Made by a program: the position numbers and the translations under genes
Shown here: positions 15,463 to 55,218 of the stretch, piece by piece
Position numbering within the stretch: position 1 is the first letter of the stretch
How the letters are laid out: every line of letters starts with the position of its first letter
The notes under the pieces: model-generated
Database searches by the model: none
Seen by the model: the letters and a program-made list of their open reading frames with translations, nothing else
What the model was told of the DNA's origin: nothing
Origin: Burkholderiaceae bacterium
GTDB lineage: Bacteria > Pseudomonadota > Gammaproteobacteria > Burkholderiales > Burkholderiaceae_C
DNA: 64,000 nucleotides
Direction of reading: 5' to 3'
Assembly: GCA_018780645.1 (NCBI GenBank)
Contig: JADMJJ010000011.1
Location: 62,001-126,000, forward strand

Positions 15463-15488
15463 AAAAGGGGCTCCGCGGAGCCCCTTTT
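15463..15488. terminator. Bidirectional Rho-independent terminator
   Basis: The sequence is one long perfect inverted repeat: AAAAGGGGCTCCG and its complement CGGAGCCCCTTTT. It has a T-run on the plus side and an A-run on the other, and lies between the convergent decarboxylase and fabI genes, so it can stop transcription from both. Confidence 0.88.
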
Positions 15489-52336: not shown

Positions 52337-52807
52337 ATGGCCAATGCGGTGCAATTGGATGCGATAGACCGTCACATTTTGAACGAGCTCCAGGCGAATG
52401 GCCGGCTCTCCAATGTGGAGTTGGCCCAGCGGGTGCATCTGTCGCCCTCGGCCTGCCTGCGGCGCGTCAAACAGCTGGAAGAGCAGGGCGTCATTGCCAA
52501 CTATGTCGCCCTGGTGGACCCCAAGGTCGTCGGCAAGCAGGGCACCTGCTACACCATCATCAATCTGGAGCGGATGACGACACAGGCGCTGGAGTCCTTC
52601 GAGCAGGCCGTGCGCGCCAGCCCCGATGTGCTGGACTGCTTCTATCTGGCCGGCAGCAACGACTACCTGATCCGCTTCGCCTACCGTGACGCCGAGGACC
52701 TGGAGCGCTTCCACACCCATGTGCTGATGCACCTGCCCGAGGTGGCCCGCTCCAACTCAATGATGGTGCTGCGCACGATCAAGAAGAGCACGGCATTTCC
52801 GCTTTAA
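52337..52807 (+). CDS. Lrp/AsnC family transcriptional regulator
   Basis: A 156-residue regulator with an N-terminal HTH (LDAIDRHILNELQANGRLSN, VELAQRVHLSPSACLRRVKQ) and a C-terminal ligand-sensing RAM domain (VDPKVVGKQGTCYTIINLER, SPDVLDCFYLAGSNDYLIRF). Such proteins form octamer-type oligomers and respond to amino acids. It is divergent from the polyamine cluster, so it is the likely local regulator; binding to a polyamine product is inference. ATG 52337 is chosen over the in-frame 52307 because it gives the family N-terminus. It overlaps the histidine-kinase gene at the 3' ends by 29 bases. Confidence 0.9.
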   Translation: MANAVQLDAIDRHILNELQANGRLSNVELAQRVHLSPSACLRRVKQLEEQGVIANYVALVDPKVVGKQGTCYTIINLERMTTQALESFEQAVRASPDVLDCFYLAGSNDYLIRFAYRDAEDLERFHTHVLMHLPEVARSNSMMVLRTIKKSTAFPL

Positions 52808-54845
52808 GGCCCGTTCCCAGCCGCTGCGGCAGCTGCAGCACGAAGCTGCAGCCCTGGCCCTCGCCGCTGTGTACGGTGAGCCGCCCGGCCAGCAGATTGC
52901 TGCCCAGGCTGTGGGCCAGGTGCAGCCCGAGGCCAACCCGGGCCTGGTGAAGCTCGGTGTTGAACGGCTCGAAGATGCGCTGCAGGCGCGCCGCGGCGAT
53001 GCCCGGGCCCTGGTCGATGATGCTGATGCGGTATTCGTCGCCGACTGCAGCGAGTTGCACCCAGATGCCGCCCGGCCGCTGGTCGGTCTGGCCGTGGACC
53101 AGCGCGTTGTCCATCAGCGGGCGCAGCACCCTGGCCAAGACCCCGGGCAGGCCCCAGCCCGCGGGCACCGCGGCCAGCTCCAGATGCAGCTCGACATCCG
53201 CCTCGCGCAGCCGCCGCTGCATGGAGGCGGCCACCTGTTCAATCACCGCTGCTGGGGCATAGCTGCAGCAGGCCTCGGCATGGTCCAGCGCCGAGGCTTC
53301 CTTGAAGGCCTCCATCAGGTCGTTGGCCAGGGCCAGGGCGTCTTCGCCCAAGGTCGATGCCTGATTGACCAGCGTGACAAAGTCGTTCAAGCGCTGACGG
53401 GTCAGCGGCTGCTGCTGTGCTTCGGCGAATTGCCGGCCTTGGGCATGAATGCTGGACATGGCCAGGCGGGCATTGCCCAGCGGCGTGTTGAGGCGGTGGG
53501 CAAAACCGGCCATCAACCGGCCCATCGAGGCCAGGCGCTCCTGCCGCACCAGTGCCTCGCTGGCCAGCGCCAGCTGCTCGGTGCGCTCCATCACCCGCAG
53601 TTCCAGCTGGTCGTGCGATTGCTGCAGGGCCTGCTCGGCCCGCTCGCGCAGCCGCATTTCGCGTTGCAGCCGGGTGACGGTTTCGCGCAGTTCGTCGTTG
53701 CGTGCGGAGACCTCGCGCATCAGCTCATCGGTATGACCGCGCAGCACGCGGTTCTCGCCGGCGAGCTGAGCCGCATGGATGAACTCGGTCATGCCTGCCG
53801 CGGCCAGGGCATGCTGCTGCTGAGCTTGCTCGCGATGCAGGCGGGTGAGTTCGTCCAGGCTGCTGCCTATCAGTGCGGCATCGGTTTCGGGCCGCGCGTG
53901 GCGCAGCAGGGCCTCGTGGGTCTTGATCAGCACAGCCAGATTGTTGGCGCGCTCGATGTTGCCTATGCTCAGCGCGGCGGCCCAATGCGCGCTGGCCGCC
54001 GGCAGATCGCCGCCGTTGTGGGCGATTAAGCCCTGGCAATAGGCCAGCCAGACGCGCGCATTGACGTTCGACAGGCCGACAGCCAGCTCCGGCCGCTTGG
54101 CGAGTTCGAGAAAGCGGTCCAACTGCTCCTGGGCCGGGGCGGTCTGCCCCAGCGCGGCCAGGGCAAGGGCCAGATTGATGTGCTCGACCGCGGCGACATC
54201 CGCGCTCTCTCCGTCCTTGTAGGCCAGTGCCAGGGCCTGGCCGTACATGTCCAGCGCCGTCTGCCAATGCTCGCTGCCCTGTCCCGTCTCGGCCAGATTC
54301 TTGTGGGCCTCGGCCGCGGTGCCCAGTACCCGCATCAGTACCTTGTCTTCCAGCGCCGGGCTGTGATCGAGCCAGCGTGGCGCCAGGGCGATCACCGTCT
54401 CGAAATGGCCGCAGGCGTTGAGCAGGTTCATCTGCACCGGCAGCGCATGGATGAGCAGGTTCCAGGCTTGCAACTTCTCAAAGGCCTCAATGGCCTGCGC
54501 CGCATGGTGCAGGGCCATGCCCGGCGCGCCGGACAGGCGCAGCGCGCGGCAACTCAGCAGGTGCATCTCGGCCACAGCCCAGGGGTCGGCCTGGTCGCGT
54601 ACACGCAACTCCAGGTCCAGCACCTGCTGCAGGCGCTCGCTCGACAGTCGAGTGCTCTTGCGCAACGCCAGCAGCGTGCTCAGCACCTCCACCCGAAGGC
54701 CGGTCACCATATCGACGGGCCGCTCCCGCTCCAGCGCAGCGACCAGTTCCTGGCATGGCCCCCAGCACATCCGCACATAGGCGTCCCAGGCCTGGGCAAT
54801 AGCTTCCTGCTGTGCGGCTGGGCGGCGTGGCAGCGGCTGGTTCAT
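52779..54845 (-). CDS. Soluble TPR-domain sensor histidine kinase, orphan
   Basis: A 688-residue protein with no signal peptide or membrane helix, so probably cytoplasmic. Residues about 60-360 consist of alpha-helical TPR-like repeats (for example VAEMHLLSCRALRLSGAPGM, AAVEHINLALALAALGQTAP). A long coiled coil follows (about 365-430, RNDELRETVTRLQREMRLRE). The His-kinase H-box is MGRLMAGFAHRLNTPLGNAR (His near residue 450). The HATPase has DNALVHGQ (N box), DQGPGIAAARL (G1) and VGLGLHLAHSLG (G2). The TPR part could sense a protein partner. No response regulator is encoded nearby. The 3' end overlaps the convergent lrp gene. Confidence 0.82.
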   Translation of the reverse strand: MNQPLPRRPAAQQEAIAQAWDAYVRMCWGPCQELVAALERERPVDMVTGLRVEVLSTLLALRKSTRLSSERLQQVLDLELRVRDQADPWAVAEMHLLSCRALRLSGAPGMALHHAAQAIEAFEKLQAWNLLIHALPVQMNLLNACGHFETVIALAPRWLDHSPALEDKVLMRVLGTAAEAHKNLAETGQGSEHWQTALDMYGQALALAYKDGESADVAAVEHINLALALAALGQTAPAQEQLDRFLELAKRPELAVGLSNVNARVWLAYCQGLIAHNGGDLPAASAHWAAALSIGNIERANNLAVLIKTHEALLRHARPETDAALIGSSLDELTRLHREQAQQQHALAAAGMTEFIHAAQLAGENRVLRGHTDELMREVSARNDELRETVTRLQREMRLRERAEQALQQSHDQLELRVMERTEQLALASEALVRQERLASMGRLMAGFAHRLNTPLGNARLAMSSIHAQGRQFAEAQQQPLTRQRLNDFVTLVNQASTLGEDALALANDLMEAFKEASALDHAEACCSYAPAAVIEQVAASMQRRLREADVELHLELAAVPAGWGLPGVLARVLRPLMDNALVHGQTDQRPGGIWVQLAAVGDEYRISIIDQGPGIAAARLQRIFEPFNTELHQARVGLGLHLAHSLGSNLLAGRLTVHSGEGQGCSFVLQLPQRLGTGLKAEMPCSS

Positions 54846-55218
54846 GGCGGCGGACCGGGCAGGCTTCTAATGATAAAAACGGCGAGAAGCCGAAGTATCT
54901 CCGCTCCGGCACGGTTCAGGGTGGATTTGACGGCCATGGCTCAGGGCCTGGCGCCCGCAAGCACTGCGAGATTGCGCAATGCGATATTGCCATGTCGCAT
55001 TATGAAAAACAACAATGCTGCAGCGCCGCAAAATTTCTCATCATGAAGATTGTGATTTCATGATGCGGTTTTGAAAACATAAGTCATTGAATTTAAAAGA
55101 CTAAATATTTAGTCTTATATAAGACATAAGTCTTCCCATGCGGGGATGGCAGGCGTAATCTAGGACCCATGAACTGCCTCGTTTCCTTGTCTCACTGAAC
55201 CCCGCTGAAGGAGCTGTT
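54846..55218 (+). promoter_or_regulatory. AT-rich control region of isocitrate lyase
   Basis: This 373-base gap between the kinase start and aceA holds no gene I can support. It contains a direct repeat GCGANATTGC (54966-54975 and 54981-54990). It also has a perfect 9-base inverted repeat CATCATGAA/TTCATGATG (55039-55065). Finally there is a 38-base array with four alternating AAGAC/GTCTT half-sites (55097-55134). AAGGAG seven bases before ATG 55219 is the ribosome site. TATAAG-like words in the array could be -10 elements. Carbon-source-responsive regulation of glyoxylate cycling is the likely purpose. Confidence 0.6.
55097..55134. repeat. Array of alternating AAGAC/GTCTT palindromic half-sites
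   Basis: Three overlapping perfect palindromes can be drawn: 55097-55116 (20 bases), 55112-55125 (14 bases) and 55121-55134 (14 bases with ATAA spacer). Together they give AAGAC, GTCTT, AAGAC, GTCTT, suitable for cooperative repressor binding or for alternative hairpins in RNA. Confidence 0.75.

Follow-up and report, generated by a model that had tools for sequence, protein, structure and literature searches.

The region described here lies directly upstream of a gene for isocitrate lyase (aceA), in a window of 64 kb (the whole stretch of DNA that was analysed). A preliminary description of this DNA had named the gene from its translation, and the family models listed in Table 1 bear out the name. 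The stretch ahead of the gene was also described as strongly AT-rich in GC-rich surroundings, which is the case: AT makes up 69% of 55000-55140 and 56% of 54946-55218, compared with 35% for the window. Between an Lrp-like gene and aceA there is a gene (52779-54845) for a protein of 688 aa in which a histidine-kinase ATPase domain was recognised. In both genus mates (L116 and L117) the apparent end of the Lrp-like gene, as read by eye, comes directly before the aceA promoter, and it seems that the 688-aa gene was either inserted in the lineage of the window or lost in the genus mates.

Table 1 Features of the aceA upstream region (positions in the window)
Feature	Position	Strand	Basis or remark
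TTTC-N7-GAAA-like box TGTCGCATTATGAAA	54993-55007	+	Among 6 genome matches to TTTCNCATNNTGAAA; alignment of 25 promoters
PhaR-like site CTGCAGCGCCG, one mismatch to CTGCNNNGCAG (candidate)	55018-55028		Conservation near the core; phaR gene present
TTTC-N7-GAAA-like box TTTCTCATCATGAAG	55034-55048	+	Contains the left arm of the inverted repeat; same search and alignment
Outer AAGAC, completing the 20-bp palindrome 55097-55116	55097-55101		Probably confined to the lineage of the window
Predicted SdhR operator core GTCTTATATAAGAC, perfect 14-bp palindrome	55112-55125		Motif identity, genome copies, conservation
Right-hand additional box ATAAGTCTT	55126-55134		Abuts or overlaps the -35 position; kept in both genus mates
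-35-like TTCCCA	55133-55138	+	Putative aceA promoter
Putative -10 box TAATCT of the aceA promoter	55156-55161	+	TANNNT spacing; alignment of 25 promoters
aceA, isocitrate lyase, 432 aa	55219-56517	+	NF011645 and TIGR01346 exceed cut-offs

The repeats reported earlier for this region were found again. The direct repeat GCGANATTGC occurs at 54966 and 54981, the inverted repeat has 9-base arms with a gap of 9 bases (CATCATGAA at 55039 and TTCATGATG at 55057), and a string check of the window placed the four alternating half-sites at 55097 and 55121 (AAGAC) and at 55112 and 55130 (GTCTT). These half-sites had been said to build three overlapping perfect palindromes. Two of the three are indeed perfect, i.e. 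55097-55116 (20 bp) and 55112-55125 (14 bp), whereas the third, 55121-55134 (AAGACATAAGTCTT), has matching arms and one mismatched central pair (2 of its 14 positions) and is therefore imperfect. When 54946-55218 was shuffled 2000 times with dinucleotides preserved, a perfect palindrome of at least 20 bp was never obtained (0/2000), one of at least 14 bp appeared in 52 shuffles, and four alternating 5-mer half-sites of any sequence appeared in 2. The half-sites ahead of aceA are real and their origin by chance is unlikely. Among the longest perfect palindromes of the window the 20-mer ranks second; the longest, of 26 bp (AAAAGGGGCTCCGCGGAGCCCCTTTT, 15463-15488), resembles a two-way terminator.

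A full-text literature search for TCTTATATAAGA matched a single paper (PMC4494728). According to its accessible text, SdhR is a regulator of the HutC subfamily of the GntR family, known from a comparative-genomics prediction (Suvorova, Korostelev and Gelfand 2015, PMC4494728), and its motif TCTTATGTCTTATATAAGACATAAGA, credited there to Suvorova et al. 2012, is a "palindrome with additional symmetry". The 14-bp core ahead of aceA is identical to the centre of the motif printed there at all 14 positions, and 55106-55131 agrees with the full motif at 22 of 26. Among the registers listed, the next best has 10 mismatches and overlaps the same site, and the remainder have at least 11. The agreement is uneven at the flanks: the first six bases of the right-hand box match ATAAGA of the published motif at 5 of 6 positions, and the left additional box reaches only 3 of 6. 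The site is thus a further instance of a motif and a regulator that had already been predicted. No experimental study of SdhR was found in the literature searched, outside of which most subscription journals lie, and the word SdhR is absent from the accessible portions of PMC5343134 and PMC12543098.

The genome to which the window belongs (5.95 Mb) was searched for GTCTTATATAAGAC with up to 2 mismatches. Four places were found, three exact and one with a single mismatch, while the control string (the core read backwards) occurred once. One exact core is located between mdh (malate dehydrogenase) and a GntR/UTRA gene preceding sdhC, another is the one ahead of aceA, and the third precedes tam (trans-aconitate 2-methyltransferase); the gene on its other side encodes a PfkB-type sugar kinase. 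The core with one mismatch lies ahead of the monomeric isocitrate dehydrogenase gene icd, an assignment based on a fragment score of 832, where the cut-off for the whole protein is 950 and the edge of the locus truncates the protein at 467 residues. Agreement with the 26-position motif is the same at the regulator gene and at tam as at aceA (22 each), and is 15 at icd. The product of the GntR/UTRA gene (P0001) exceeds the cut-offs of both GntR (PF00392) and UTRA (PF07702); it reaches no NCBIfam cut-off, the best being HutC TIGR02018 (122.8 vs 220). It is called SdhR here because of the motif and the gene neighbourhood, mdh on one side and sdhC on the other. The exact core begins 46 bp ahead of the start used here for this gene.

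In a sample of 60 genomes of the family, the core (up to 1 mismatch) was present in 55 and the reversed control string in 5. The regulator (E 1e-30 or better) was encoded in 57; some genomes also contain paralogues of 34-44% identity. Site and regulator were found together in 55 genomes, the regulator alone in 2, the site alone in none and neither in 3 (Fisher p = 0.0003, a statistic that ignores kinship). The three genomes that lack the regulator (G008, G021 and G043, with completeness of 65% for G008 and 80% for G043) have no site, and the two with the regulator alone (G017 and G046) have sites with 2 mismatches only (L152, L159 and L133). Besides that of the window, 29 family aceA loci were compared, namely the best matches from the 56 other genomes in which aceA was present; 27 of them carry the core (up to 2 mismatches) within 500 bp. 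The exceptions, L125 and L134, belong to G021 and G043, and of the three genomes lacking the regulator only these two have aceA. At the regulator gene itself (the best 30 of the 57 matched genomes) a core with up to 2 mismatches was present in all 30 loci and one with up to 1 mismatch in 26; in L159 this site overlaps the estimated start. The family genomes with monomeric icd (L221-L247) have such a core (up to 2 mismatches) ahead of that gene in 11 of 27 cases.

The preliminary description had tied its reading to conservation of the repeats in relatives, and here the result is divided. For the wider comparison, 112 aceA loci were used (3 of the genus including that of the window, 29 of the family and 80 of named organisms; at least one pair, L048 and L129, is identical). 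Within 300 bp ahead of aceA, 98 of them carry the core with up to 2 mismatches. Over the same 112 loci, the best 14-mer in control 300-bp stretches inside aceA never had fewer than 5 mismatches, and the reversed string came to 3 mismatches upstream of aceA only once. The most common right flank of the 98 sites is ATAAG (0.54-0.78 per position). The outer elements fared otherwise: an exact outer AAGAC is found at 1 of the 98 sites, that of the window, and the right arm TTCATGATG of the inverted repeat is altered to TTCACAATG and TTCACGATA in the genus mates. The left arm belongs to a conserved stretch, ATTTCTCATCATGA.

In a class-wide sample of 151 genomes, the regulator was found in 8 (at E 1e-20 or better) and the pattern (up to 1 mismatch) in 18; 16 of these 18 are not members of the family, and 13 of the 16 have a single hit. 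The reversed control was found in 53 of the 151 (counted by eye from the table), and the pattern hits outside the family therefore do not exceed chance. The distant genome G204 contains four sites, and about 140 bp separate one of these from the matched part of a regulator of 33% identity that follows it.

Among the 80 aceA loci of named organisms, 12 have at least 3 mismatches at their best site. Two of these (L039 and L107) come from genomes without a regulator match, two (L111 and L113) from genomes with a match of 39-41%, and the remaining eight from genomes with a closer regulator, including L058, L070 and L103, in which the aceA site has 3 mismatches. No good aceA site accompanies the regulator in seven of the named loci, namely L070 (3 mismatches) and L083, L097, L098, L102, L106 and L113 (5-6 mismatches). 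Their regulators are 53-63% identical (41% for L113; that of L083 was matched in two pieces). A site with up to 2 mismatches is retained at the regulator gene in six of them (L070, L083, L097, L098, L102 and L113), being an exact upstream core in L083; at the regulator gene of L106 there is no site with fewer than 5 mismatches. In control loci with an aceA site (n = 11) the regulator was present in 11/11 and a site at its gene in 10/11, and of the named regulator loci 18 of 20 have such a site. Since named loci keep the regulator, and often its own site, without a site at aceA, this gene is a frequent and non-universal member of the regulon. In Pelomonas sp. UHG3 (L035) the aceA core is a variant, GTCTTGTACAAGAC, and there is no core at the gene of the regulator, which is only 59% identical; its specificity has possibly changed. 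Two regulators were split into two matching pieces within one frame (G011:C23:65038-65853, 306 aa, and G215:C196:2181-2951, 293 aa), as if by an in-frame insertion in the middle of the protein.

The position of the core relative to the promoter was compared in near relatives with a single core (n = 31, the window's own included, picked by locus number). A TANNNT box begins exactly 30 bp past the core in 29 of them. An alignment of 25 promoters, chosen from near relatives with the core, has few gaps. The putative -10 box of the window, and with it the putative start point of aceA, was placed on the grounds of this conservation and in preference to a scan with the sigma-70 consensus, which lists only 54987-55016 and misses the conserved box. 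The core of the window lies upstream of or at the -35 position, with its centre about 37 bp ahead of the -10 box. In 53 other single-core promoters (Burkholderia, Ralstonia, Oxalobacteraceae and others) the 30-bp spacing is not the rule; the most common distance from core to TANNNT is 24 bp (15/53). A further 14 promoters have two cores ahead of aceA (L126, L127, L130, L131, L138-L140, L142-L146, L046 and L047), separated by 30 bp in 13 of them and by 29 bp in one. Here TANNNT is found 31 bp past the first core in 13 of 14, and the second core therefore fills the stretch between the putative -35 and -10.

Motif identity, conservation, the joint absence of site and regulator in the family sample and the fixed promoter spacing are visible in the sequences themselves. 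The best explanation, to which we assign a probability of roughly 0.87, is that SdhR, whose gene lies between mdh and sdhC, uses the core and the right-hand box as its operator. Against this count the named loci with a regulator and no good aceA site, the two family genomes (G017 and G046) whose sites have 2 mismatches, the different spacing in the other single-core promoters, the location of the window's core and the poor left box. The two inverted half-sites GTCTT/AAGAC would be occupied by an SdhR dimer, and at the -35 position the adjacent extra box would offer one more half-site. Once bound, SdhR would most likely repress aceA by blocking RNA polymerase, and a ligand of the UTRA domain, signalling a need for the citric acid or glyoxylate cycle, would release it. 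Repression is favoured because the second core of the relatives sits between -35 and -10 and because at tam the core comes 9 bp after TACAAT, a box that we read as -10. Its own gene, mdh and sdh next to it and, in this genome, tam and monomeric icd are probably further targets of the regulator. The window site resembles the published SdhR operator in its core, in most of the full motif and in the extra right-hand box, and there is a GntR/UTRA gene before sdhC with a site of its own; it differs in its poor left box. The side of the additional box also varies, being mainly left (TCTTAT) at the regulator gene and mainly right (ATAAG) at aceA in the loci read, and the relatives with two whole cores depart further. 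If SdhR represses, it would be functionally similar to IclR, the glyoxylate-bypass repressor at aceBAK of Escherichia coli, which belongs to a different protein family and has a different motif (TGGAAATNATTTCCA, as given in the accessible part of PMC8222616). With this assignment, a gene of the glyoxylate shunt acquires a likely regulator across a large group of Burkholderiales, and the predicted regulon (mdh, sdhR-sdh, aceA, tam and icd) is testable.

The main rival to repression is that SdhR binds at the same core and activates aceA, because the single core of the window stands upstream of the promoter at a fixed distance. A location upstream of or at a weak -35 also suits activators, the constant 30-bp spacing to -10 in the near promoters is in keeping with it, and at icd, as counted by eye, the core has a similar position, 27-28 bp from TAGAAT, in four near genomes including that of the window. 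However, the second core of the two-core relatives and the core at tam both occupy positions in which a bound protein would block the polymerase, and activation is considered rather unlikely.

A less probable reading takes all four half-sites as one unit, with dimers occupying the overlapping 20-bp and 14-bp palindromes in competing registers. This is close to the cooperative binding by a dimeric repressor put forward in the preliminary description. The alternating arrangement is improbable by chance, as the shuffles indicate, and the accessible text of PMC4494728 describes GntR regulators whose palindromes are flanked by extra half-sites. The outer AAGAC, however, is replaced by AGGAT and ACAAG in the two genus mates, both of which keep the core and ATAAGTCTT, and, being exact at the window's site only among the 98 aceA sites, it is probably restricted to this lineage. 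Neither the outer palindrome of 20 bp nor the inverted repeat with CATCATGAA is counted as belonging to the SdhR operator. What stands of the earlier proposal is the dimeric repressor, as regards a conserved core of published identity that is missing from the family genomes without the regulator, together with the right-hand box; the outer left half-site drops out of the unit. Cooperative binding is more credible in the other genera that have two whole cores 29-30 bp apart.

Two other explanations are very improbable. Inverted repeats do exist here, as alternative hairpins in an aceA leader (the other branch of the preliminary description) would demand, but they lie upstream of the putative conserved -10 box, and an RNA element was rejected on finding no Rfam match at the gathering threshold and no terminator-like hairpin. 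In other bacteria, isocitrate lyase is a target of RamB-type regulators. A site for such a glyoxylate regulator (RamB/ScfR) was nevertheless rejected as scarcely credible, the ScfRs family (PF09856) having 0 matches in this genome (2 of 14 control genomes match) and the motif being published, in the part of PMC4494728 consulted, as a GntR/HutC one.

Further upstream, SdhR may not be the only input. A candidate PhaR-like site, separate from the palindromes of the preliminary description, lies 84 bp upstream of the core; the accessible text of PMC12542648 gives CTGCNNNGCAG as the sequence of PhaR (AniA) sites in Rhodobacter sphaeroides. A phaR gene was found in this genome. A site with up to 1 mismatch is present upstream of the core in 20 of the 31 near promoters, compared with 0/31 inside aceA and 6/31 further upstream. 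In 54966-55065 this site and an array of TTTC-N7-GAAA-like boxes can be traced across the 25 aligned near promoters, although single boxes are often weak. It is possible, as a tentative reading of these sequences, that the aceA promoter of this group has three conserved inputs, i.e. the SdhR core, the PhaR-type site and a further regulator on the TTTC-N7-GAAA array, with SdhR controlling icd as well. If so, the PhaR-type site could report polyhydroxybutyrate stores, and SdhR would set the isocitrate branch point through aceA and the rival isocitrate dehydrogenase. An IclR-type regulator was considered for the TTTC-N7-GAAA boxes and rejected, as the IclR-family consensuses in the accessible parts of the sources fit poorly by eye. 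Genome-wide, TTTCNCATNNTGAAA with up to 1 mismatch has 6 matches (control 0), two of them in the aceA promoter. Two others are located about 135 bp ahead of an MFS-transporter-like gene and between protease-like and lepA-like genes (kinds of gene read by eye from the translations, without a family search), another falls within a coding frame, and the last spans the start of a small gene.
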